A DNA stretch of 31,583 nt, from the IMG/VR virus record IMGVR_UViG_3300009149_000163, positions 1 through 31,583 of that record; one strand, given 5' to 3'. The DNA is from a virus. Below, in pieces: positions 3,334 to 28,825 of this stretch. How positions within the stretch are numbered: position 1 is the stretch's first letter; every line of letters begins with the position of its first letter. The notes under the pieces were generated by a model, which searched no databases, was not told the origin of the DNA, and was given only the letters and a program-made list of their open reading frames with translations. The position numbers and the translations under genes were made by a program.

Positions 3334-5087
3334 TAACAGTTGATTTTATTACTTGAGTTAAAGTCAGATAAATCTGTTGGTTTATTTTGATATATTTGTT
3401 CATTCTTTAAATAGAAATTTATATCATTTTTTATATAATGAATATTATTAATAAATGGATAATCTGTCCCATTTCCTAAGTCATCGGTATATCCGTGTTT
3501 ATATAAATCCCTCCATTTCCATAATCCATCAACGCCAAAATATTTTGCGTTTTGTGGTAAATTTTCTATTTCATATACATCAGATGTTTCCACATATGGT
3601 GATAATTCACGTAATTTCACCCTATAATGAGGTTGATAAAAATACCCAAATGGATTTGTTAATGTTGCTCCTGTAAATGTGGATGTGTAACCAGTTTGTC
3701 CATAGTCAAAATTATCTATATTAGTGTAAAACTTATATATTGATTCAGAAATGATTCTTTCTTTCATTTCTATTGGGTTATATTCGATAAATGCTCCTGT
3801 TAATTCTGTACCAATTGGAACACTGCTCCCAGATGTAAACCAGTATGGGTCACCATCAGCTTCCCTATAAAATGTTGTTCCTACTAATGTTGTTTCCTGT
3901 GAATTTGAACCGTCAAAATGGTCATCGACATATGTATCGTGAAAATTAAAACTATATCCCACTTTTGGTGGGTATTCAAAATAACCATTACTATTTCTTA
4001 AAATAACAGACACATACACTTCTGTTGGAAGATACCCTAAATTATTAGTTAATCCAGTTAACACAAATGGTTCTTTAAAATCATATAATAATGATTCCAT
4101 TCTATTTCTTTCAACTAATACATTATTATCACCATAAATGTTTTCAAAAACTAATTTTTTTTCATCTTCCCATATTGGCGATTCGAATCCTGCTTTATCT
4201 AAAATATATCCATCAACATCTGTTAATGTTTTGTGCTTATGAACATAATATTGTGATGTTGTTCCTGTTAAATTATTTTTATCGGTACATCTTTTTCCCG
4301 TAACAATCACATTGCTAGTAAGACCTGTTTCACCAACAGGAACTTGGCTTTTTAAAATGTTAATAACATATTTTTCTGAATTATAATTTTCATTACCAAG
4401 TAAATTTACATAATAAGGATAATCATCAATAATAATATATTCCCCTTGATTCATTCCGTGTTCAACGGGGCTTATTAACCTATAATATGGTTTAATATAA
4501 TTTACCCTGAACGGAATACCGTCCTCACTAACAAAAGATAATGATGTTTCATCACTTAATGTATATGTCATTGTGTGTCCAGTATCTTGTGAATCGATAT
4601 ATGAAAGATATAAATTCCAATTGAATTTTGACGAATCTAATGATGTGATAGTGTTATGTGTTGTATCTCCGACTATCGTTGTATTAAATCCATCAAAAGT
4701 TGATAACCCAATTTCATCTAAGGTCGGTACGACCGGTTCTTCTCTTAAAACATCTTTTCTTAAAAACGCAAATTCGTCATATGGCATATAACCATAAAAC
4801 CTGTAACTTGACCCATCATCTAATATATATAGTTTGTCGTTTAATGGGCGATAACTTGTCCATCCTGAATACATATTTCGGAAAATCATTTTAATTTTAC
4901 CGTGTATTTTATAAATGTCACTATCTTGCCTTTCTTCGTCAAATAACTTAGCAACATTAAGAACCGTATCCCTTTCATCATTCGTTAATAACTTCCTTTT
5001 TCCTTGAAGTTTAACTGAAAGCGACATATCCTCGGTTGGTGCCTTTTCGTATCTTTTTTCTGGTAATATTATTCTTTTATTTTTCAT
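3333..5087 (-). CDS. Putative baseplate-associated virion protein (584 aa)
   Basis: This 584-residue protein has a basic, helical N-terminus (about 1-70) followed by a long beta-rich, Tyr-rich body. The last 110 or so residues are dense in Tyr, His, Asn and Trp (for example GLWKWRDLYKHGY), typical of a protein-protein contact surface. I do not recognise a family. It is joined to its neighbours on both sides by TAATG overlaps, so it is part of a translationally coupled series after the 1377-residue gene. By position it could correspond to T4 gp8 (a 334-residue wedge protein), but the length differs and no motif supports that. Confidence 0.7.
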   Translation of the reverse strand: MKNKRIILPEKRYEKAPTEDMSLSVKLQGKRKLLTNDERDTVLNVAKLFDEERQDSDIYKIHGKIKMIFRNMYSGWTSYRPLNDKLYILDDGSSYRFYGYMPYDEFAFLRKDVLREEPVVPTLDEIGLSTFDGFNTTIVGDTTHNTITSLDSSKFNWNLYLSYIDSQDTGHTMTYTLSDETSLSFVSEDGIPFRVNYIKPYYRLISPVEHGMNQGEYIIIDDYPYYVNLLGNENYNSEKYVINILKSQVPVGETGLTSNVIVTGKRCTDKNNLTGTTSQYYVHKHKTLTDVDGYILDKAGFESPIWEDEKKLVFENIYGDNNVLVERNRMESLLYDFKEPFVLTGLTNNLGYLPTEVYVSVILRNSNGYFEYPPKVGYSFNFHDTYVDDHFDGSNSQETTLVGTTFYREADGDPYWFTSGSSVPIGTELTGAFIEYNPIEMKERIISESIYKFYTNIDNFDYGQTGYTSTFTGATLTNPFGYFYQPHYRVKLRELSPYVETSDVYEIENLPQNAKYFGVDGLWKWRDLYKHGYTDDLGNGTDYPFINNIHYIKNDINFYLKNEQIYQNKPTDLSDFNSSNKINC

Positions 5088-8000
5088 TATTCAACTGTTG
5101 TAAATGCGTCTTTAGGTCCGAATCTTGATATTAACATATCTAATCCTGTTTTCCCAGGTCTTAATCCAAAATAGAACATAAATGGTGTAGATAATATTTG
5201 TTTTTGAGTACTATATGGGTCTGATGTTGGCCATATTGTTGGGTAAGTATAATCCCAATTATTTAAATCATCTGTGATATCAATATCTGGATTGTCTGTA
5301 AAAGATGTAAATAAACTCCAATTTCCTGCGTCCCCTAATCTAACATATAACCTACCCTTTTTAGGGTTCATAATATTATCGTTTGGTGCGTCTTGATATT
5401 CTGTTGCTAGAAGAACCGTAAACATATGATTTTGGGTGTCATAATCTTTTAAAACATCATCATAATCATCAGCTGGAAGTGCTGGCGTTTGTGTTATAGG
5501 TATAACAATATCAAATTCTTCAGATGTACTACCACCAGCCGCAGATGTTAATGTTAATCCATCTTCTAAATCATAACTTATTGGGGGTAATAAGTATGGG
5601 TCATCAACATCTGTTTCACCACTAGGTGGAAAATCTGTAAATTTATATCCATAAGTCATTCCTTGTAATTTTTGTGTAACAACACGAGTATAATCCCAAC
5701 ATTGGTCATCAAGGTCTTTAATGGCTGGGTCGCCACTAAGCCCATACGGTCCAAATCCAGTTCCTCCTTTATCCCAATAATAAAATGGGACAACTTGTGA
5801 TGCTTCGGTCAAATAACCGGGAGCATTTAAACATTGACGAATCCTAACTCCGTCATCTTCATATTTTAATGTCACGGGTGTCGGACCCCATATTGGTGTC
5901 CCATCTGGATTAGTACCATTAGAAAATATATCTAAATGTTCTTCAGGATCTAAAACAGACATACTATATCCTGCATATTTTTGATTTTGTAAATCAAAAC
6001 CATCAATTCCCGCTTCTGAATTTATTGATATTAATTGTGAAACGTCCCCGTTGAATATTTGTCCAAAAAATCTATTACTATTTTCATTATAAAACCCTTT
6101 ATTCTTGAAAAAATCATTAATAATCATATCAGCATTTCTAACATCCATTTTATAATTAACCGCAAATGCGACTAATTCACCAAAACTTTTATATGATGTT
6201 ATACCGATAGAACGAGAAACAGAACAATTTGGGTCAAGGTCAGGGTCATTACAAATTTCTTTAATAAATTCATCTCTTGGACCTAAATCAACAAATGTTG
6301 TTGGGTGACCTATATAATAATCATTATCTTTTTCGTTATCGATTCCCCATGTGGTCCCCCTAAGTCTACACGACCTATAATAAAATCTTTCATGTTCTGG
6401 CTTATCCATATATATAACAACAGTATCACACGATTTTATTTTTGTGTAATCTGTTTTTTCTTTAATTTTCGCTTTAAATTGGAAAAAATACAATGATCCT
6501 GATAACCAATTATCAACAAAAGCATAATTAACTATCCCACCACAAAAATTTAAACCAATTATTTTTCGTCTATACCATTCTCGTAATCCATCTCGATTTT
6601 TCTGACAAAGACCATTTCTTGAAGGGACGATTGTAAACACACCATCCCTAAATTCTGAACGTCCTGTTTTTGTTTTTCTATTATAACTTGTTGGGTCGAG
6701 TTTTCTCCAGTCATCTTTATACTTTGGTAATCTTTCATTATCACAATGAAAAACACTTGCCCCTATTGACCATCCAGATTCTGGTGGTACTTCTGGTAAA
6801 ATATTAGTTTTGACTTGTTCTTTAACATTAATGTCATTTACAGCTCCTGTTGTTGTTGGTGTTTCAAAATTATAATCAGTATTTTCGGGGTCAACCCACA
6901 AATAATCCCTTATCGTTTCTTCATTATATAATGTATCGTAAATATCACAACCCTCTTCAGTATCTATCCCGCCATACGCTGTAGATGTTTTTTCAACTGC
7001 TCTATCTAAAATATAACCACTCGTTGTTTTAGGTGTTGTTTCAAATAGTGCGTCCGCACCATCAATATCAAATATTGCTGACATTTGGTCGTTAGTAAAT
7101 GTAAATCCAGTTGATGGTGTACCATCAATGGTATAACCAGTAACTGGGTATGTGTCATAATCACTTTCAGGATCCCATATTAAAAATTCCGCTCTTACGA
7201 CATATGAACTGGCAAGTCCACCAATAAACATTTTAAATCGTGGGTATGATATTGACGATACATCCCAAGTTTCTGAATTCATATCATTATATCCATCAAC
7301 AGTCACCTGCCACGAATCACAACATTCATCATCATTAACACAATCTCTGGCCGCTCCACTATCATATAATGATGAACCATCAGTAGTGTCTTCATTTGCG
7401 GTTAATGTAAAGTATGTTAAATTATTTACCGAGTTTCCACTAATTTCAATATTAAATTCCCCTATTTTACAATAATCATTTTCGTCATACCCTTTAACAT
7501 ATTCTTCATCATCTGTCGTGCATTCATCACATGTATCATAAATCGTAAGTGGTAATTGCATTTGTCCCGCTTCTTGTATTTTAATGGCACTATCATAAAA
7601 TTTTTCTCCCCAACTTTTATTAACTGAGAATAGTAACCCCCCAATATCATTAAATATTTTTGCTAAAAATTCATAAACAGTTAGTGAAACCATCGAAAAT
7701 GTAAATTGTATAAACGCTAAAACTAATGCTAATAATAATTGGAAATTAAATGATGTATTTCTAATACCCATATTAATAGGAAATGTATTAACAGTACTAT
7801 TACAATCCTTATCTTCAGATGGGGCGATATCATTTATCGCTAAAGTTCTTTTAGGTGAATCAAATAATAAACTTTGGAATGATGATACGGTATATACTTT
7901 ACCATATTGGAATCTATAAAAATAATCCTGTGGGTAAAATTCACCATCAACACTATTAAAAATAATGTTATTATCCCAATCCGTTGCATCGTCTGGGTAA

Positions 8001-9220
8001 TCATTCCAATCAATTGACCAAGCATAAGAACTCGCCTCATCCCCTTCATATTCACGGATGTTTGGTAAAAGGTATGACCCCCTTGCTCTAACACGCTCAA
8101 GACCTTCATCTTTTAATGTTACTCGTAATCGATAACAACTTGTGGTTGGGATACCTTTATTTGGGTCATTTGTATAATCGCTTTCACCAAATTCATTGGT
8201 ATATAGGAAATTCATATTCATAGGAAGACGAATTAAAAATGAACCATCTTCGTTAATTTCATCATCTACTGTAAACTTTTCTAATTGAGGATAATATCTA
8301 TTATCTAAATCATTATGTATTGTATCTGGCGTAAATCGAATTGCTTCTACGATACCTGCTTGGGTTGTCATATCACATTTCTTACCCATATTTTTTCGTG
8401 GTTTACAACTCTTATTTATAGAATTTTTACCATCATCACTAAATGTACCACCAATTACAATCGCACTTGGTTCGATTTTAATGCCCTTTTCAGATAAATC
8501 AAAATCGGCTCTTGTTATTCCAATTTCACATAAATCATCATTTCCCCAAAATGGATATACTTCAATTCCTCTATCAAATGTTACTATTTGTGGTAAAGAA
8601 TCGATATCTTCACTTGCTTTATATTCATATGGTGATTTAAATTCTTTTGGTCCAACTCCTGTACCTAAAAGGTCGTCAGGTCGTAATGAAAAACAACCCA
8701 TATCGGATATATCTAAATCCACATGTAATAATTGTTCACCTAATGGAACACCCCAAATCATAAAATCACCAGAATCGTTTGTTTTAACTGTATATTTGTA
8801 ATAATTTTCAAATACTTCAAGTACTTCTTCTCGAGCAATTATATCTGTTTGGTCGGGGAATGTACCTGTTGGTTCGTGACCACCATGTTGTTGTCTTGAC
8901 GGTAATAAATTATACCTATACCCGTCTTCATTTCTTTCACTTACCGATTTATATGGGTATAATTCAGAAATTATTGGATCATTTTCATGGATTTCTAATT
9001 GCGGGATAAATATTGATACTTTAGCGTTTGGAACACCGTACCCATTATTCACACTTATTCTTCCACAAACAACTCCATAGTCTGAACATAACGATGTGTA
9101 AATGTCTTGTTGTGATAATTTTAACGATAAAACTTCTAATAAACCAAAATCTTGTTTTAGTTCAACAGTTAGTTTTTGGTCTTTACCAATATTTGTTCTA
9201 ATTCTTTGCTTTTGTCCCAT
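5087..9220 (-). CDS. Large baseplate protein in gp7 position (1377 aa)
   Basis: The gene lies directly after gp6, where T4 has gene 7, the large wedge protein (1032 aa); by size and place it is the best gp7 counterpart, though I see no diagnostic gp7 motif. Residues about 50-170 resemble a carboxypeptidase-regulatory-like Ig fold: GRISVNNGYGVPNAKVSIF, then TNDSGDFMIWGVPLGEQLL and a strand HVDLD. Residues about 490-531 form an unusually hydrophobic stretch, followed by a Cys cluster (C564, C567, C584, then C627, C633, C634). The C-terminal half is beta-rich with many Asp and Thr. The ATG at 9220 follows a 59-base gap without a clear Shine-Dalgarno, and the stop overlaps the next start. Confidence 0.65.
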   Translation of the reverse strand: MGQKQRIRTNIGKDQKLTVELKQDFGLLEVLSLKLSQQDIYTSLCSDYGVVCGRISVNNGYGVPNAKVSIFIPQLEIHENDPIISELYPYKSVSERNEDGYRYNLLPSRQQHGGHEPTGTFPDQTDIIAREEVLEVFENYYKYTVKTNDSGDFMIWGVPLGEQLLHVDLDISDMGCFSLRPDDLLGTGVGPKEFKSPYEYKASEDIDSLPQIVTFDRGIEVYPFWGNDDLCEIGITRADFDLSEKGIKIEPSAIVIGGTFSDDGKNSINKSCKPRKNMGKKCDMTTQAGIVEAIRFTPDTIHNDLDNRYYPQLEKFTVDDEINEDGSFLIRLPMNMNFLYTNEFGESDYTNDPNKGIPTTSCYRLRVTLKDEGLERVRARGSYLLPNIREYEGDEASSYAWSIDWNDYPDDATDWDNNIIFNSVDGEFYPQDYFYRFQYGKVYTVSSFQSLLFDSPKRTLAINDIAPSEDKDCNSTVNTFPINMGIRNTSFNFQLLLALVLAFIQFTFSMVSLTVYEFLAKIFNDIGGLLFSVNKSWGEKFYDSAIKIQEAGQMQLPLTIYDTCDECTTDDEEYVKGYDENDYCKIGEFNIEISGNSVNNLTYFTLTANEDTTDGSSLYDSGAARDCVNDDECCDSWQVTVDGYNDMNSETWDVSSISYPRFKMFIGGLASSYVVRAEFLIWDPESDYDTYPVTGYTIDGTPSTGFTFTNDQMSAIFDIDGADALFETTPKTTSGYILDRAVEKTSTAYGGIDTEEGCDIYDTLYNEETIRDYLWVDPENTDYNFETPTTTGAVNDINVKEQVKTNILPEVPPESGWSIGASVFHCDNERLPKYKDDWRKLDPTSYNRKTKTGRSEFRDGVFTIVPSRNGLCQKNRDGLREWYRRKIIGLNFCGGIVNYAFVDNWLSGSLYFFQFKAKIKEKTDYTKIKSCDTVVIYMDKPEHERFYYRSCRLRGTTWGIDNEKDNDYYIGHPTTFVDLGPRDEFIKEICNDPDLDPNCSVSRSIGITSYKSFGELVAFAVNYKMDVRNADMIINDFFKNKGFYNENSNRFFGQIFNGDVSQLISINSEAGIDGFDLQNQKYAGYSMSVLDPEEHLDIFSNGTNPDGTPIWGPTPVTLKYEDDGVRIRQCLNAPGYLTEASQVVPFYYWDKGGTGFGPYGLSGDPAIKDLDDQCWDYTRVVTQKLQGMTYGYKFTDFPPSGETDVDDPYLLPPISYDLEDGLTLTSAAGGSTSEEFDIVIPITQTPALPADDYDDVLKDYDTQNHMFTVLLATEYQDAPNDNIMNPKKGRLYVRLGDAGNWSLFTSFTDNPDIDITDDLNNWDYTYPTIWPTSDPYSTQKQILSTPFMFYFGLRPGKTGLDMLISRFGPKDAFTTVE

Positions 9221-15790: not shown

Positions 15791-18493
15791 TTATTGGTTA
15801 TTGTTTTCTTTTGCTTTTCTTGCTTTTTTTCTTAGATTTTCGGCTCTTTTATCAGCATCTAATTTCCTTTTATCTGCTTTCGCCTCACCTAATGTTTTTT
15901 CTGTTGTTACTATTTTTTCTGGTTTGACAACCCTATCTTGATTTTCGTTATTTTCATCTTTAGGTTGTTCGTTAGATAGATTATCGATTTCATAATTAAC
16001 CCTTTCTGATTTTTCATCATCAAAATCTAATGTAATTTTGATGTCGTTTACCCCTTCACGCTGTTTTCTTCTCGCTTCTCGTAATGCTTCAGGTCCTCTA
16101 TTTCTTTTTCTTTCTTCTTCTTTTTCTTCAGCACCAAACATTGTATCTTGATTATCTGCATCAAAAATTAAGTATTCGTTATCAAATATACAATTTGAAA
16201 ATACAATACCATCAGGTCCAATACGGGATTTTAAAATCGCCATTGTCGCTAATTTATTTTCTTTTTGTTCAAGAGTTTTACCTACTGAAATTACAATATG
16301 ACCAATCTGTGCTTTTTTAATCGAACCACCCATTAAATTAGTGGTGACAAGTTCCGTTTGTATTGATTCCCTATTTCCTTGGGTAGCCGCCCACATTGCA
16401 ACATCAAATTCAGTAGTCATTGCTTCTAAATGTCTCATTATATTACCCTCACCTTTCCATTCTTCCCCAGGTGGAGCTTTTTCAGGAACAAGACAATCAA
16501 CATAATCAAGTAAAATTAAATCAGGATTAAACCCTTCCGATTTAAGTTTTCTTATATTAGATTTTAATTCAGAAATTGTGACTGAATCACTTGGTAATTT
16601 TAATATTTTTAATGTTCCTTTTGACTTACTTCTCTTATCGGTAGCTATTTTAATAACTTCTTCTTCTTCCATATGTAAATCATCAGGATGAATACTAGTC
16701 CAAATTGTAAAATGTTTTTTCATTACACTTTCTACATTATCTTCAAAAATAATTTGTAGTACATTGGCGTTATCCATAAACCCCGCATTACCGAACATCG
16801 TTAATAATGTTGTATTATGCGTCAAAACATAATCACTTGTCACATATAATTCATCTAAATTAGATACTTTCACACAAACAGCTTCTTCGTTATGTGAAAA
16901 CTCTATTGATTTAATAAATTTCTGTTCTTTATATTTTGTTCTTTTATGATAACGAGTTATTTTTCTTTTCAACCTAAATGGAACAATATCATTAGCAAAT
17001 GATATTGTTATGGTATATGATAGTTGTCCGTATTTCTTTTTACCTTTATATTTATATATTGGGGATTTTTCATTTACGCTAACTGTCCCACCCAAAGATA
17101 AAACTAGTTCCCTTACATCCATTGACAATTGTTTTGAACAGGTTGTATATTGCGATATACCCCTCTTTGAAACATATCCATCACTATCCATTAATCCTTG
17201 TAATAATTTTATTCTAACATTAATAGAATTATATAAATAATCTTTTGGGATAAATTTATTATTTGATTTTTTACCCAATAATTCATATTCTAACAATGGT
17301 TTGTTAAACTCTTTTTTAAACCTAATAACTTTAATTGTTTTGTTATCCCTATTATAATTACCATAACTTGTGGAATAGGTTGATTCAGAAATAACATTAA
17401 TAATATCATCATCCTTTGTTGATAATGTAGCATTATCTTTTTCTGGTAAATAACCATCCCCAATTAATAACCCAAGAATATAAGGGTCAATTAATACATT
17501 TTTTTTATTAAATTCAACAGGTTGTATTGTTGGTAATCTATAATTTGAATATCCTCTTTTTGATGTTGTTTTCATCATATCAGAGGTTTTTATTACCACA
17601 TATTCATCTTTTGGTTTATACACCGATTTTCCATGTATTCGTGTTTTAAATTCCCTCATATTTCGTGTATTAACACACCAAAGATGATTTTCATCACACA
17701 TTACTGACGTTTTATCAGTAAATTTTATATTATATATTGGACGAACACCTTGTGGATATACCCCTAAAATATGCTGTATTTGACCATTTGACCCAATAAC
17801 ATTATCTCCTATTTTAATATTACCAATTTTTTCCCATCCTGTTGGTGTTAATATTAATTCACTTACTGGTTGTGCTTTACCAACTCCAGTTGGTGCTAGT
17901 AGAACACCCAACTCACATTTCCCTAATCCACCTTTAAGTATACTATCAACACGACCAATTCCTGTTGGTATTGGTCTTCGTGAATTTGGTCTTATCGTTT
18001 CTTTAATATTATCAAAAATATCTCGAGCATCACTTGTTAATGTACCAACTAATAACGCTTTTGTTATTATATCCTCAATTTGTGGGTATGCCCCAAAATC
18101 ACCCCTATCAATAATTGATTGGACAACTTTAAGTTCCCTTTTCATTACTTGTTGTCTACAAAAATCAAGTGCGGTATCTTTAATTTGCTCCGCATTTTCC
18201 ACATCAGCATTTTTAACCAAATTAATGGTGTCTAAATGCATTTTTGAAGATGTGTCATTTTTATTTTCTTTGTTTATTTCAAGAATAACACTATCGTAAC
18301 TTGGGACTTGATTGTATTCTTTAAAATAATCACTCATTATTTGAACAACATATCTAAAAGATCCTGCATCAAAATAATGGGAGTCTAAAATTTCAAGAAT
18401 TATTGAACCGAATTTTTTATCGGTGAGTATTACTTTCATTAAGGATAGTTGATAATCTGCCCCTAAAGAACCAAAATTATGTTCTGCCGTCAT
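15791..18493 (-). CDS. gp41: Replicative DNA helicase, gp41/DnaB-like, with intein (900 aa)
   Basis: The host protein, about 546 residues after removal of the intein, is a hexameric RecA-fold helicase like T4 gp41 (475 aa). The N-terminal helical domain (1-150) has the DnaB/gp41 look (YQLSLMKVILTD, then SFRYVVQIM). The Walker A motif is APTGVGK (200-206) joined after splicing to TT (561-562). Walker B is DLILLDYVD (658-666), and WAATQGNRES (701-710) and KKAQIGHIVISVGK (726-739) fit the sensor and C-terminal core. The last 110 residues are very charged (Lys, Arg, Glu) and longer than in T4, possibly a primase or loader contact. An intein fills residues 207-560. The gene sits between the 152-residue unknown (3-base gap) and the reductase. 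Confidence 0.92.
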   Translation of the reverse strand: MTAEHNFGSLGADYQLSLMKVILTDKKFGSIILEILDSHYFDAGSFRYVVQIMSDYFKEYNQVPSYDSVILEINKENKNDTSSKMHLDTINLVKNADVENAEQIKDTALDFCRQQVMKRELKVVQSIIDRGDFGAYPQIEDIITKALLVGTLTSDARDIFDNIKETIRPNSRRPIPTGIGRVDSILKGGLGKCELGVLLAPTGVGKAQPVSELILTPTGWEKIGNIKIGDNVIGSNGQIQHILGVYPQGVRPIYNIKFTDKTSVMCDENHLWCVNTRNMREFKTRIHGKSVYKPKDEYVVIKTSDMMKTTSKRGYSNYRLPTIQPVEFNKKNVLIDPYILGLLIGDGYLPEKDNATLSTKDDDIINVISESTYSTSYGNYNRDNKTIKVIRFKKEFNKPLLEYELLGKKSNNKFIPKDYLYNSINVRIKLLQGLMDSDGYVSKRGISQYTTCSKQLSMDVRELVLSLGGTVSVNEKSPIYKYKGKKKYGQLSYTITISFANDIVPFRLKRKITRYHKRTKYKEQKFIKSIEFSHNEEAVCVKVSNLDELYVTSDYVLTHNTTLLTMFGNAGFMDNANVLQIIFEDNVESVMKKHFTIWTSIHPDDLHMEEEEVIKIATDKRSKSKGTLKILKLPSDSVTISELKSNIRKLKSEGFNPDLILLDYVDCLVPEKAPPGEEWKGEGNIMRHLEAMTTEFDVAMWAATQGNRESIQTELVTTNLMGGSIKKAQIGHIVISVGKTLEQKENKLATMAILKSRIGPDGIVFSNCIFDNEYLIFDADNQDTMFGAEEKEEERKRNRGPEALREARRKQREGVNDIKITLDFDDEKSERVNYEIDNLSNEQPKDENNENQDRVVKPEKIVTTEKTLGEAKADKRKLDADKRAENLRKKARKAKENNNQ
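16814..17875 (-). other. Class 3-type intein with LAGLIDADG homing endonuclease
   Basis: The 354-residue insert (A207 to N560 of the helicase) interrupts the P-loop between GVGK and TT; removing it restores a normal Walker A. It starts with Ala, not Cys or Ser, with block A reading SELILTPTGWEKIG. Block B contains NHLW (H270, W272), block F contains AVCVKV (C540), and block G is VLTHN followed by Thr+1 (T561). Trp, block F Cys and Thr+1 form the WCT set that defines class 3 inteins, which splice through the block F cysteine instead of residue 1. Two dodecapeptides, ILGLLIGDG (D346) and LQGLMDSDG (D438), keep their catalytic Asp, so the homing endonuclease looks intact. Splice points are read from the sequence, not tested. 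Confidence 0.9.
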
Positions 18494-23053: not shown

Positions 23054-26000
23054 TCATTTTAATCGAAAATAAACTGTATCATCATTTTCTAACCTTAAAC
23101 TTGTCATTAATTTTCTCGACATTGATACCCCTAATATTGATTGTGGACCAATATGTACAGGTCCACTATATATCTTAGTATCGTGGTCAAAATTAGTATC
23201 AACAGTTATTTGATCCTCGTTTTTTGGGTTTTTAAATATTGTTTGCGGAAATTCTGATAATACATCATTTGGATATAACCCACCACCCCCGGTCATTTGT
23301 CTTAGTAGATGTTCTTGGTCAAATCTACTAGAATAAAATGAATGTGTGTTCGTTGTATTTTTTATTTCTCCCCAAGTTACTTGAGTTTGATTCCCATCAT
23401 TATCACCATACCTAGAAATTATTGACATTGTACTTGAATCATTAAGTGGGTGTGCGGCATCAGCTCCGGGTGCTCCCATTTCTGTAACGGTGGTTCTTAA
23501 CCATTCCACACCATCTTTATCTTTTATTAATAGAATGAATTTTTCACCTTTAAATCCATTATATGGTATTCCATACTCTTTAATTCCAGGTCGATTTATT
23601 AATTTTTCACCCTGAAGTGTACCTAATTCATCCTCCATTGGATTAATTGTGTAAGTATTATCTTTACTATCGGTATATTCGGTTTCATATTGTGTCACGA
23701 TTTTAAATTCAAGTTGTTCTTGTTTAACCCTCGCAACCGCTCTATTAGATAACACATCGAAAAACGCTCGATAACTTGCCAAAAACGAATCTCTTGGGTC
23801 TGGTAGGGATTGTAATGGTATTCTACTTCCCGTAAATGTTGTTTCTATACCGTTATTTCTTATAACATGATTAACTTCAGTTATCCAATAAGAACCCCTA
23901 AACATTGGTACATTTTTAAGATAAAAATACATTGTTGGTTGAATCATAACATTACCCATACATGAAACAGTACATTGATATGATGCTGTTCGATATATAT
24001 CGAATAACCCTATATCTATTTGTGCTGTACTTGAACCACCTTGAGAATTACCTAAATTTTCTAATACTTGAAACGATTCTGATGTATTTCTAATTGTATT
24101 TTGATTTAACTCCAATCCTTTAAATATTGATTGGTTTTGATCACCGAAACTAACCTCAAAAGCTACTACTTTATTCGATTTCGAATAATCTATGTTCCTA
24201 AACACATCTGGAGCGATAACAAGAGGATTATTATTTACAAGACCCATATCAAAACTATCATTCGCAAATTTTGAATCCCTATCAATATCTGACATTTCAA
24301 GTCGTTTTGATAACGGACCTGTGTATTGTAATATAATTTTTGGTGACGATTCCTCATGGTCAACTTCTAAGAATGTCCCAAATAAGTTTCTAGCAACATT
24401 TTTTGATGGGATGGTTTTTCTTGTATTTGAAAAATTAGTACCATAAAAATTAACATATGCGGGTAAAGGTCTAATATCTACCCCACTATTTTTAATTAAA
24501 AGATTAATTAACGAAAATAAATTTACCTTTAATGCGTCCTTTTGTTTTAAAACACCGATTAATCTATCCATAGTTAAATAAACATCATCACCAATATCCC
24601 TGTTTGCTTTATCCAAAAATAAGAATTCTTCCATTAATGTTCTTTGACCTAATGAATTTCCTGCTACCCACTTATCATTAAAGGATTTAAAGAAATCATA
24701 TAATTCAAGTTTTATAATATCATCATTGTACCCACGACTGATTGTTAATGTTTCATCTATATCTAATGTTTCTAATTTCGAAAATCTGTTAATTAATGTG
24801 TCTAAAAATAAACTTCTTCGTTGTAAAATACCACCATAGTTTGGTTCGGTTGCTGTTGCGGTTGTATTTTTGTCTAATACATTATCAATTAAATAATTAA
24901 TAAAAGTATCTTTGTTTGTGACATCAATTCCCGCCGCACTTGCCCCGGCGTATGTGTAAATTAAGAATCTTAAATTTTTAATATTATCTTCATTTAACGC
25001 AATATTATTTGTAGTGAAAAAGTTCAAATAATATAAATCCATATCTTCACCAAGATATAATGTAATGTAATCTAAATTTTCTTGTGTAATCTGTGCTGAA
25101 TAAAATTGTCCAACATCAAAATTTTCACTATCTATTCCAGTAAATCCAAATAATGAATATGGATCGATTTCTTTTGGGTTCGCTAGTGTAAATTTAAGTA
25201 AATTCTTATTACTTAACACTTCTTCAGTAACATCTAATAAAGTTTGTTCTTGGTCATCAGCTAAATCACTAATTGTTGGGTCATCATTTGTTGGTGTTAT
25301 ATAAACCAAATCTTTTAACATTGTTTGAAATGATGAATATTTTACATCATACGGAGTATATTGTGTTTCGTCACTAAGGATTTCAGATGCAAAATATAAA
25401 AATTCTTGTTCAAATATATCTAAAATGTCAGGTTTAAATGTGGCAATTAAATCAATAACTTTTTTATTATTATCACTTAATGAATATGTGTTTCCTGTTG
25501 TTTTAAAATATTGGTCATGTGCGGGGAATGTTTCACCTGTATATGTAATAATATCATCATTATTATTAACCCATAATATTTTTAAATTATCTTGCTCTGA
25601 TTCTTCAAACTCAAATATATCTGAATAAACATTTTTTCCATTTGAAGGTAGGAACGTGTAACCGCTTTGTGTTGGTTCAAATTTTGAGTTATTAATTACT
25701 GATGTCCAAGTACGATTACCATTCATTATTAATTCTTCATTAATTATATTCCCAGCGTCACAAGCGTTTGTATATCCACTTGTTGTTGCCGCTGTTGGGT
25801 CATAAAATGTATACCCATGAATAATTTGATGAAATATTGATTGGTAAAATGGATATAATCCAATATCATCTTCATCTGCTCTATCAATTGTGTATATGCC
25901 AAGTTCACCAAACTCATATGTTCTACCATTATAATTGTCAAACATTAAATCCCCATCGAATTTATCTGTGATATTATCAATTATATCAATTCCATTTGTA

Positions 26001-28825
26001 ATATATGTTTTATACCTATGATATATTGAACCCCATTTTAACATTAAATGGTAAGGGATAAAGTGTGTTGCACCAATTTCCCTAAAAATGGTACTCATTA
26101 ATACTTCCTTACTTGTGCTACTTGTACCTTTATCGCTTTTATATGTTATCGTATCATCCAAATCTTTAAATGGTAAAGAGTTTAGAAATAGATACGATGA
26201 TGATGCATATTTTCCACTTATTTTCCCGTTAATAAAATCGATATATAATTGTTTATGAAAATAAGGTGTGTTTAAAATATGCCTATAATCATCATTAATA
26301 TTAACTCTATATTCAAAAATATTATCAGTATAACCATCTTTTACCCATTCTTCTGTGTTGATTGGTGATGATATGAACGCATCATTTGTTCTTAACCCTA
26401 AAATTCCGTGTAATTCCAATTCATTCTTCCCGAAATTTCCTGATGGTAGATATGATTTGTATGTTGTAGAATTAAATGGGTATATTTGTGTCCTATATCC
26501 TTCTGATTTATAATTATTAAGGTTATCTACGAATTTTTCGTATTTATCCCCAAAATCTATCGTACCTGATGTTTCTTCATATTTTTCTACATTAAAATCC
26601 CAATCTAATGTTTCTGTTATATAAGAAACTGTTGGTGTTTGACTAGTATGATAAGGCCATCTTTCAAATGCAGAATAACTATACATTAAATCTTCAAATT
26701 GAGCAACGGATGTCGCTTGTTGTTTTAATATCTCAATCGCGGTATAGTTTTCTTTTATCTTATTTTCTAAATTTTCGAACTCAATTTCCGCTAATTCTTG
26801 TATTGTTGTTGGGCTGTATGAATCTATTGATGTAATAACACTTGCTCTTTCCCATATTTCATATAAAATAGATGTCATTGATTTATCATAATATGGTGAT
26901 ACGCCTGTTAAATTTGTAAAAGTAGATAAATCATATGTATCTACCTTTTCAGTATCGGTTTCAAAAACATAAGTAACAAGATCCGATGGTCCTTCTTTTT
27001 CTGTTAATGGGTCAGTTTTACGGGTAGCAACCGAGTTGTATTCTTCTACAAACCCTACTTCCGGCCATAATGTTGTATCATCTGACTTTAATTTTTTAGA
27101 TATACTACTCGCTCCAGGATAAATTAATATATTTTGTTTTGTACCGACAGTTGTTTCTTTAACTTCTGGCCATGGGTATATATTATCAGCACCAATGCTA
27201 TCTGTTGAAACATTGCTTAAAACCTCACTTCTATTTTCTGCTTGATTAAATGCGTCTATATGAACTTTTTTTAATAATCTAATGTATGTATCCGCATTTG
27301 CTAAAACAACACCAATAATGTTTCTCATTGTTGGTTCGAATCCAAATCCGGTTTCAGGTTTTTTTACAATTTTATTCATTTCTTCCTGAAGATTTTTTTC
27401 TAATTCGTTGCATTGTTCCGTATAATCTCTTCTAACATTATTTATATCAGATATTAGTTTGTCATAGTCTATTAAAACCTTTGCACCTGTTTGTCTATAA
27501 TATTTTTTAATACTTTCTGGACTTGATTTCCATATTTTATTAAGGGATATTTGTTTAATATCTATTCCATTCTTTTTAAGTAAACTATCGTCCCTACCTA
27601 CACCAAACGCTTGGTTACCGTTTAATTCTTCTGTGTAATTTTTTAATATATGTTCTAATGTACCTGTTGCGTCCCCATCAACTACGAATTCTAATGAATT
27701 TGAGTCGTTATCTGATAACTTATATAAATTAGTACCATCAACTTCTTCAACTTGACCCGATAAGTGTAATTTTTTCCACGAATCAACAGAATTATAAAAT
27801 GATTGTATTAGTTTTTCAAAATCATTAACCCCAGATAATACTTTTGGGTCTACAATTTCACGAAAAATTTCGTTTTCTAGTATTTTATCTAACCTACCAG
27901 CAATTACCGCAATTTCCTGTAATGTTTTAACAGGAAAATCATCAGCTAATAACCCCTTTGATTTATATTCGTCATATACTGATTTTAATGTGACATAACC
28001 TATACTTGTTTTCTTTAATATTTTATCATAAAATCCAGTATTTTCATTATATTGAGCTAATGTCCCTTTTTCACCAGTAGGGTCTGATTCACTATTTACA
28101 GAACGCTCAACCCCATACATATATGGTGCGTTTAATATACCCGCTAATGGAATATCATTTAAAAACGCGAATGTTGAGCCAACAAATGTTGTATCTATAT
28201 CGAAATTACCCGTACCTGAATTAAATGCGGAGTTAAAACTAACCATATGTAACCTATATCGAATAGCTTTACCGTAATATCCCTTAACTGTTAAATAAAA
28301 TATCGGCCATGGGATATGGAAAAATGCTTTATACGGTGAATTTTCAGGTGATTCAAATAATGTTTTACCCCTAACATCAATAAATTTTATTTGTATTTGA
28401 GGAATAAAATTTAAACCAGTTATTTGTATATTAATTTGTTCAATACCAAATGTTTGTGCTGTACTGTCAGATTGATTAAATTCCTTATTATCAGCATAAT
28501 TGGTATTGTCTTTTCCTTTTTTTTCGGTTACATTAGTAAATGAATCAGTCCAAGTAGTGTCATAATCTTTACCTTTATCGTTCTGTAAAAAATTTAATGT
28601 ACCTTTTGCGATAGAAACAAGTTGATTCGTTTCATTACCCGATATAAGTGTGGTTCTAGGAACTAAATCAGCTTCTAAATTCACATAAATGACTAGATTT
28701 TCTGGTTCAACTTCCCTTTTTTGAAGATACCCATTCGACAATACAGTATTGGGATCAATATAAATTAAATTATTTTGGTCCGTTTTTACTAAAATATCCC
28801 CTGAATTTGTTAATTTATCCGCCAT
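23054..28825 (-). CDS. Giant baseplate hub-like virion protein (1923 aa)
   Basis: This is the largest gene in the window. It directly follows gp53, where T4-type phages keep hub genes, and overlaps it by 11 bases. Near residue 135-190 is an assembly-type region (NFIPQIQIKFIDVRGK, then AFFHIPWPIFYLTVKGYYGK). Around residues 1600-1690 a stretch resembles the hub/late-control family: YQCTVSCMGNVMIQP, then FRGSYWITEVNHVIRNNGI and a closing FTGSR, which fits the domain that links tube and spike in gp27/gpD-like proteins. The middle of more than 1000 residues is Tyr/Asp/Asn-rich with no motif I recognise. I see no lysozyme active site. T4 gp27 is only 391 residues, so this is either a much-expanded hub or a fusion. 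Confidence 0.6.
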   Translation of the reverse strand: MADKLTNSGDILVKTDQNNLIYIDPNTVLSNGYLQKREVEPENLVIYVNLEADLVPRTTLISGNETNQLVSIAKGTLNFLQNDKGKDYDTTWTDSFTNVTEKKGKDNTNYADNKEFNQSDSTAQTFGIEQINIQITGLNFIPQIQIKFIDVRGKTLFESPENSPYKAFFHIPWPIFYLTVKGYYGKAIRYRLHMVSFNSAFNSGTGNFDIDTTFVGSTFAFLNDIPLAGILNAPYMYGVERSVNSESDPTGEKGTLAQYNENTGFYDKILKKTSIGYVTLKSVYDEYKSKGLLADDFPVKTLQEIAVIAGRLDKILENEIFREIVDPKVLSGVNDFEKLIQSFYNSVDSWKKLHLSGQVEEVDGTNLYKLSDNDSNSLEFVVDGDATGTLEHILKNYTEELNGNQAFGVGRDDSLLKKNGIDIKQISLNKIWKSSPESIKKYYRQTGAKVLIDYDKLISDINNVRRDYTEQCNELEKNLQEEMNKIVKKPETGFGFEPTMRNIIGVVLANADTYIRLLKKVHIDAFNQAENRSEVLSNVSTDSIGADNIYPWPEVKETTVGTKQNILIYPGASSISKKLKSDDTTLWPEVGFVEEYNSVATRKTDPLTEKEGPSDLVTYVFETDTEKVDTYDLSTFTNLTGVSPYYDKSMTSILYEIWERASVITSIDSYSPTTIQELAEIEFENLENKIKENYTAIEILKQQATSVAQFEDLMYSYSAFERWPYHTSQTPTVSYITETLDWDFNVEKYEETSGTIDFGDKYEKFVDNLNNYKSEGYRTQIYPFNSTTYKSYLPSGNFGKNELELHGILGLRTNDAFISSPINTEEWVKDGYTDNIFEYRVNINDDYRHILNTPYFHKQLYIDFINGKISGKYASSSYLFLNSLPFKDLDDTITYKSDKGTSSTSKEVLMSTIFREIGATHFIPYHLMLKWGSIYHRYKTYITNGIDIIDNITDKFDGDLMFDNYNGRTYEFGELGIYTIDRADEDDIGLYPFYQSIFHQIIHGYTFYDPTAATTSGYTNACDAGNIINEELIMNGNRTWTSVINNSKFEPTQSGYTFLPSNGKNVYSDIFEFEESEQDNLKILWVNNNDDIITYTGETFPAHDQYFKTTGNTYSLSDNNKKVIDLIATFKPDILDIFEQEFLYFASEILSDETQYTPYDVKYSSFQTMLKDLVYITPTNDDPTISDLADDQEQTLLDVTEEVLSNKNLLKFTLANPKEIDPYSLFGFTGIDSENFDVGQFYSAQITQENLDYITLYLGEDMDLYYLNFFTTNNIALNEDNIKNLRFLIYTYAGASAAGIDVTNKDTFINYLIDNVLDKNTTATATEPNYGGILQRRSLFLDTLINRFSKLETLDIDETLTISRGYNDDIIKLELYDFFKSFNDKWVAGNSLGQRTLMEEFLFLDKANRDIGDDVYLTMDRLIGVLKQKDALKVNLFSLINLLIKNSGVDIRPLPAYVNFYGTNFSNTRKTIPSKNVARNLFGTFLEVDHEESSPKIILQYTGPLSKRLEMSDIDRDSKFANDSFDMGLVNNNPLVIAPDVFRNIDYSKSNKVVAFEVSFGDQNQSIFKGLELNQNTIRNTSESFQVLENLGNSQGGSSTAQIDIGLFDIYRTASYQCTVSCMGNVMIQPTMYFYLKNVPMFRGSYWITEVNHVIRNNGIETTFTGSRIPLQSLPDPRDSFLASYRAFFDVLSNRAVARVKQEQLEFKIVTQYETEYTDSKDNTYTINPMEDELGTLQGEKLINRPGIKEYGIPYNGFKGEKFILLIKDKDGVEWLRTTVTEMGAPGADAAHPLNDSSTMSIISRYGDNDGNQTQVTWGEIKNTTNTHSFYSSRFDQEHLLRQMTGGGGLYPNDVLSEFPQTIFKNPKNEDQITVDTNFDHDTKIYSGPVHIGPQSILGVSMSRKLMTSLRLENDDTVYFRLK

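Follow-up and report, generated by a model that had tools for sequence, protein, structure and literature searches.

A virus sequence of 31,583 nucleotides (IMG/VR record IMGVR_UViG_3300009149_000163; the whole stretch is called the window here) encodes a replicative helicase whose Walker A motif is interrupted by an insert that begins with alanine. The locus raises the questions of which class such an insert belongs to, how it could leave the helicase without the standard start of splicing, and whether it spreads. The preferred answer, which is very probably correct, is that the insert is a class 3 intein that brings along a LAGLIDADG homing endonuclease and separates Lys from Thr in the Walker A motif of a phage helicase of the T4 gp41 type, and that it would splice by the class 3 route and spread by homing.

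The interrupted helicase

The minus-strand ORF 15791-18493 is translated as one unbroken frame of 900 residues. The initial annotation had placed an insert at 16814-17875 within this frame, and the translation, the intein-free orthologues, and a family HMM built here all agree with it. The ORF scores 456 bits with this HMM (E = 5e-139) and the rest of the window at most 1 bit, and the HMM finds no second intein of the same family in the window. A similar intein is encoded in 518 phage records; these records, the HMM score, and intein-free orthologues that close exactly between GK and TT mean that the insert is not a chance feature. The empty orthologues also bear out the position first proposed, exactly between GVGK and TT. 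Walker A is split between Lys206 and Thr561, reading LLAPTGVGK, then AQPVSELILTPTGW ... DYVLTHN as the intein, then TTLLT. The GC content is 27% in the intein against ~32% in the exteins. The Pfam intein splicing model PF14890 gives no match to the window intein and under-calls it.

Table 1. Parts of the helicase precursor and its intein, in window coordinates
Feature	Position	Strand	Details
Precursor ORF	15791..18493	(-)	gp41-type replicative helicase plus intein, 900 aa; intein-free orthologues match phrog_19, PF03796 DnaB_C, and T4 gp41 in PDB
N-extein	17876..18493	(-)	residues 1-206, Walker A end ...LAPTGVGK
Class 3 intein (by signature and tree) with LAGLIDADG endonuclease	16814..17875	(-)	354 aa, residues 207-560
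Residue 1, Ala207	17873..17875	(-)	non-nucleophile; A/S/E/D in same-site orthologues
Block B CDENHLW	17678..17698	(-)	D267 (DxxH), H270 (B:10), W272 (B:12, W of WCT); positions per PMC3196547, PMC6195587
LAGLIDADG homing endonuclease domain	16931..17518, limits approximate	(-)	PF05204 Hom_end and PF14528 LAGLIDADG_3 above cut-off; PI-SceI alignment, fold
LAGLIDADG motif 1, LGLLIGDG	17453..17476	(-)	D346 aligned with PI-SceI Asp218
LAGLIDADG motif 2, LQGLMDSDG	17177..17203	(-)	D438 aligned with PI-SceI Asp326
C540 (intein C334)	16874..16876	(-)	block F:4 (EAVCVKV), predicted initiating nucleophile; invariant in alignments A2 and A4; Asp in class 1 comparators
T558 (intein T352)	16820..16822	(-)	block G:5, T of WCT
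Penultimate His559 and terminal Asn560	16814..16819	(-)	THN in 166/167 family members
T561, +1 residue	16811..16813	(-)	predicted second nucleophile; Walker A Thr of mature helicase
C-extein	15791..16813	(-)	residues 561-900 (TTLLT...) plus stop codon

All 12 intein-free orthologues match phrog_19, and all 12 likewise match PF03796 DnaB_C. A profile of the intein-free orthologues has the 475-residue helicase of 8dtp, which is T4 gp41 (PMC10359460), as its best match among solved structures, over the whole length (E 1e-19, positions 15-429). Judged by these matches, the host protein is a T4 gp41-type replicative helicase, as it had been called at the outset. The genes near the helicase encode a gp32-like SSB, a UvsX-like protein, a 5'-3' exonuclease, ribonucleotide reductase, and baseplate (wedge) proteins. 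The description of the phage as T4-like is fair in a broad sense for a 31.6-kb virus fragment, given its gp41-, gp32-, and UvsX-like replication genes and its baseplate wedge genes. Contigs with related intein-bearing loci reach up to 340 kb.

Two very large ORFs of the window, at 5087-9220 and 23054-28825 (1377 and 1923 aa), match no PHROG or Pfam family. RNA families and tRNAs were found nowhere across the window, and thus no intron- or tRNA-linked mobility is seen.

Class of the intein and its predicted splicing

Class 3 inteins were first defined in a mycobacteriophage DnaB intein, and are proposed to be monophyletic and phage-derived (PMC3196547, PMC4031507). The class 3 triplet WCT consists of Trp B:12, Cys F:4, and Thr G:5 (PMC3196547); it is Trp67-Cys118-Thr137 in Msm DnaBi1 (PMC6195587), and the MchDnaB1 intein has a Cys124-His65-Thr143 triad with Trp67 (PMC7664689). 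The window intein has W272, C540, and T558 at these places, and the class 3 DxxH of block B is present too. The initial annotation had named the Trp and Cys of this set correctly but had taken its Thr to be T561 at +1 instead of T558 at G:5; both residues are Thr, so the signature holds despite the mislabel. The mutant set proposed with it (A207, C540, and T561) is incomplete, as W272 and T558 are missing.

The orthologous helicase inteins at the same site have Ala, Ser, Glu, or Asp as residue 1 (for example Ala in the window, Ser in L001, Glu in L017, and Asp in L100), while His B:10, Trp B:12, Cys F:4, THN, and the +1 Thr are all fixed. This pattern indicates that residue 1 is not the catalyst, in line with the earlier remark that an intein starting with Ala207 has no standard start. 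An N-S or N-O shift is impossible for Glu and Asp, so part of the mutagenesis has already been run by nature. Across 13 divergent phage inteins, Cys F:4 and the T, H, and N residues show no variation.

A wider family set of 167 distinct relatives was drawn from records of phages, viral contigs, and bacterial genomes. THN is present in 166 of them, and the +1 residue is Thr in 150, Ser in 15, and Cys in 2. A GK/GR-type motif precedes the intein in 158 of the 167, and a class 3 intein in a mycobacterial DnaB P-loop has already been published (PMC6195587); the Walker A location, presented at first as something special, is the rule in the family. Ala is residue 1 in the majority (109/158), a count in which the automatic assignment is wrong for a few non-helicase rows (e.g. 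L135, L194, and L216) and the helicase set was checked against empty alleles.

In a splicing-block tree, the window intein groups with 27 class-3-like rows, and these 28 rows are split from 7 class 1 rows (6 from bacterial genomes and gp41-1 from a PDB match) with support of 98/95. The tree is built on 115 columns with modest sampling and without the Bethlehem DnaB prototype. Poor resolution within the class-3-like group and long class 1 branches mean that it shows the class split and not a detailed history. The lack of a Cys, Ser, or Thr at residue 1, the presence of Trp B:12, Cys F:4, and Thr G:5, and the grouping apart from class 1 support the assignment of the insert to class 3, as originally named.

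Residue 1 being Ala could also mean that a class 1 intein has recently lost its nucleophile and now splices poorly or not at all, and Cys F:4 is known in some class 1 inteins (PMC3196547). Such decay is very improbable, as none of W B:12, C F:4, T G:5, and DxxH is missing, the intein is placed in the class-3-like group, Ala1 is the family majority, and the orthologues are conserved. Moreover, an intein that had died in Walker A would leave the replicative helicase inactive. The same Ala1 is found in class 2 inteins, but all reported members of that class are in KlbA orthologues and have Asp F:4, Ser G:6, and attack by Cys+1 (PMC4031507), whereas the window intein has a gp41-type host, Thr+1, His G:6, and Cys F:4; the chance of a class 2 intein here is close to nil.

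Cys at residue 1 occurs together with Cys F:4 and THN in three inteins of the class-3-like group, L093 (Escherichia phage vB_EcoM_EC001), L144, and L168, which could serve as natural test cases for the border between class 1 and class 3. Cys at +1 is seen in the class-3-like inteins L088 (Mycobacterium phage Phrappuccino terminase) and L168; PMC5222942 describes the IcmO intein as the only class 3 intein with Cys+1 known at that time. Trp B:12 is replaced by Ile in L086 (Lactococcus phage 949 terminase) and by Phe in L134, L156, L160, L168, and L172, with Cys F:4 and THN retained, and the W of WCT is thus not absolute.

The splicing steps of the preferred class 3 reading are taken from class 3 biochemistry (PMC5222942, PMC4031507, PMC7664689). 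Assisted by His270 and Thr558, Cys540 would attack the K206-A207 peptide bond, giving the branched thioester at block F, from which the N-extein would be transferred to Thr561. Successively, Asn560 would cyclise with the aid of His559, and an acyl shift would yield a helicase of 546 residues with an intact GVGKTT loop. As Walker A is split in the precursor, the unspliced protein is expected to have no working ATP site and thus no ATPase activity.

By analogy with Msm DnaBi1, the precursor might also be a regulated state, in which oxidation of Cys540 would slow splicing and delay phage replication. In a broader form, the Walker A intein could be a condition-sensitive replication brake in these large phages, where an oxidised block F Cys, possibly with C266 or C273, would keep the helicase unspliced and ATPase-dead until conditions suit. 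The Walker A site and the block F Cys nucleophile are as in DnaBi1 (PMC6195587), and extra cysteines flank the block B His and Trp. On the other hand, C273 is absent from the orthologues compared and there is no Cys at the position of DnaBi1 Cys48; both the regulated precursor and the wider brake are improbable. The only Cys residues of the window intein are at intein positions 60, 67, 246, and 334. C266 and C273 lie on either side of the block B His and Trp (window 17675-17698), and C266 is kept in the orthologues, while C273 is in none of those compared.

Endonuclease and spread of the intein family

The AlphaFold2 model of the intein (35 sequences) has a pLDDT of 91.5 and a pTM of 0.89. The Foldseek ranking for this model places PI-SceI first (E 3e-18), followed by archaeal intein endonucleases, I-DmoI, the class 3 mini-inteins 6riy and 6bs8, and the WCT-grafted gp41-1 6riz; by sequence, the window intein matches the class 3 structures 6rix, 6riy, and 6bs8. 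Both LAGLIDADG motifs keep their catalytic Asp in the sequence alignment with PI-SceI, as first noticed. The endonuclease dN/dS is 0.08 for the L111/L117 pair and 0.07 for L009/L096. These values, taken from close pairs only with distant pairs set aside for saturation, indicate purifying selection on the endonuclease in close family pairs.

With the orthologue L001 as query, 80 helicase loci were collected; the window C-extein as sole query found no viral relative because exact peptide patterns were too strict. The intein carriers among the 80 are L004-L020, where L004 is the L001 contig again and L019 is cut off. The intein-free alleles that the initial annotation had advised seeking in related phages are found at 62 loci covering the site, which read APTGxGK followed by TT or ST, and L080 does not cover the site. 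On the helicase tree the intein is patchy with 7 changes, and 11 intein-free sequences form the sister group of the window and L001.

The closest comparison is between the filled alleles L006-L008 from three metagenomes and the empty alleles L043 and L044 from two metagenomes, with L032 and L033 as slightly more distant empty alleles. The recovery of both the filled and the empty allele from several independent assemblies speaks against an assembly error. L006 and L043 share 4.9 kb in two blocks (3605 nt at 99.0% and 1298 nt at 99.8%), which meet exactly at the insertion point of the 1071-bp intein. On the N side, the nearest 540 nt of the L006-type allele and L044 differ by three synonymous changes only, all within 9 nt of the site (ACAGGTAAA vs ACTGGAAAG), and on the C side the first 720 nt are identical. 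Three mismatches in the last 9 nt, against ~0.07 of 39 expected by chance (Poisson ~6e-5), point to a short co-conversion tract beside the insertion site, as homing would predict. A precise loss of the intein, through recombination with an empty allele, would leave much the same pattern, but the nesting among empty alleles favours gain.

In the L111/L117 pair, the intein has a dS of 0.49 (dN 0.03) against 1.07-1.58 (dN 0.23-0.34) in the exteins, and a nearly identical intein within far more diverged exteins is a clear case of horizontal transfer. In L110, whose helicase branches within a set of intein-free relatives, this Walker A site holds a class 3 intein clearly distinct from that of the window (44% identity), which implies repeated invasion of one site. 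The nearest relative of the window intein is that of L001, with 66% identity in the intein and 53% and 61% in the exteins. The mobility suspected from the intact motifs is well supported as recent by the L006/L043 pair, the patchy tree, and the L111/L117 transfer, at the level of the intein family, in which the window copy has no close pair.

No phage nearly identical to that of the window but free of the intein was found, and the window and L001, both of which carry the intein, are mutually nearest carriers on the helicase tree. These observations would suit a class 3 intein whose endonuclease is inactive in the window copy and which is vertically inherited here. This is rather unlikely, though less so than the other alternatives, because both catalytic Asp residues and an unbroken, high-confidence endonuclease fold are kept, close pairs from other parts of the family show purifying selection on the endonuclease, and the intein is closer to that of L001 than the exteins are. 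With an active endonuclease, as preferred here, the enzyme would cut the intein-free helicase gene at the conserved Walker A codons during infection by two phages, and repair would then copy the intein in, with a very short flank included.

Known inteins and the natural series

The site between the Walker A Lys and Thr is a classic P-loop insertion site (PMC5050341). DnaBi1 of Mycobacterium smegmatis and M. leprae (6bs8) resembles the window intein in being class 3 with WCT, Ala1, and DxxH and in interrupting the P-loop of a replicative helicase of the DnaB family (PMC6195587). In contrast, Msm DnaBi1 lies in a bacterial gene, has Ser+1, and as a mini-intein lacks an endonuclease, and the window has a phage gp41-type helicase, an endonuclease, and Thr+1. 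The Mycobacterium chimaera DnaB1 intein (6rix, 6riy) shares WCT and the Cys-His-Thr triad (PMC7664689) and matches in sequence and fold, but is also a mini-intein of a bacterial DnaB. Class 3 inteins of phage terminases, helicases, and PhoH (mycobacteriophage TerL, Bixzunavirus helicase L084, and Rak2-type terminase) have 30-38% full-length identity, the same motif set, and Walker A sites (PMC5050341), and differ in their host proteins.

The gp41-1 intein (6qaz) is similar in its phage-type origin, gp41 name, high Hint similarity, and THN. However, it is a class 1 intein with Asp F:4, Phe B:12, and no endonuclease, and groups with class 1 in the tree. PI-SceI, the yeast VMA intein, has a Hint domain and a two-motif LAGLIDADG domain whose Asp218 and Asp326 align with those of the window, but is a class 1 intein of a eukaryotic V-ATPase.

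In the open papers searched, no gp41-type helicase was found to be described with a class 3 intein in its P-loop. Class 3 inteins are known, as are the phage origin proposed for them and their P-loop preference, so the window taken by itself adds one more routine example. Of more value is the natural series of one helicase gene with 62 empty alleles, filled alleles with A, S, E, or D as residue 1, and two nearly isogenic alleles set apart by the intein and by three synonymous changes next to it. This series makes the class 3 rule, in which residue 1 is free and Cys F:4 is not, testable without designed mutants, and likewise makes LAGLIDADG homing in environmental phages directly testable.

The annotation of such genes is prone to error. 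The best PHROG of the window helicase is 'terminase large subunit' (phrog_19299, E 8e-46), solely through the intein. Several RefSeq phage records (H8, H34, H45, H51, H53, and H60) name unrelated intein carriers 'DarB-like antirestriction', and the depositor of Phrappuccino names its carrier a terminase.
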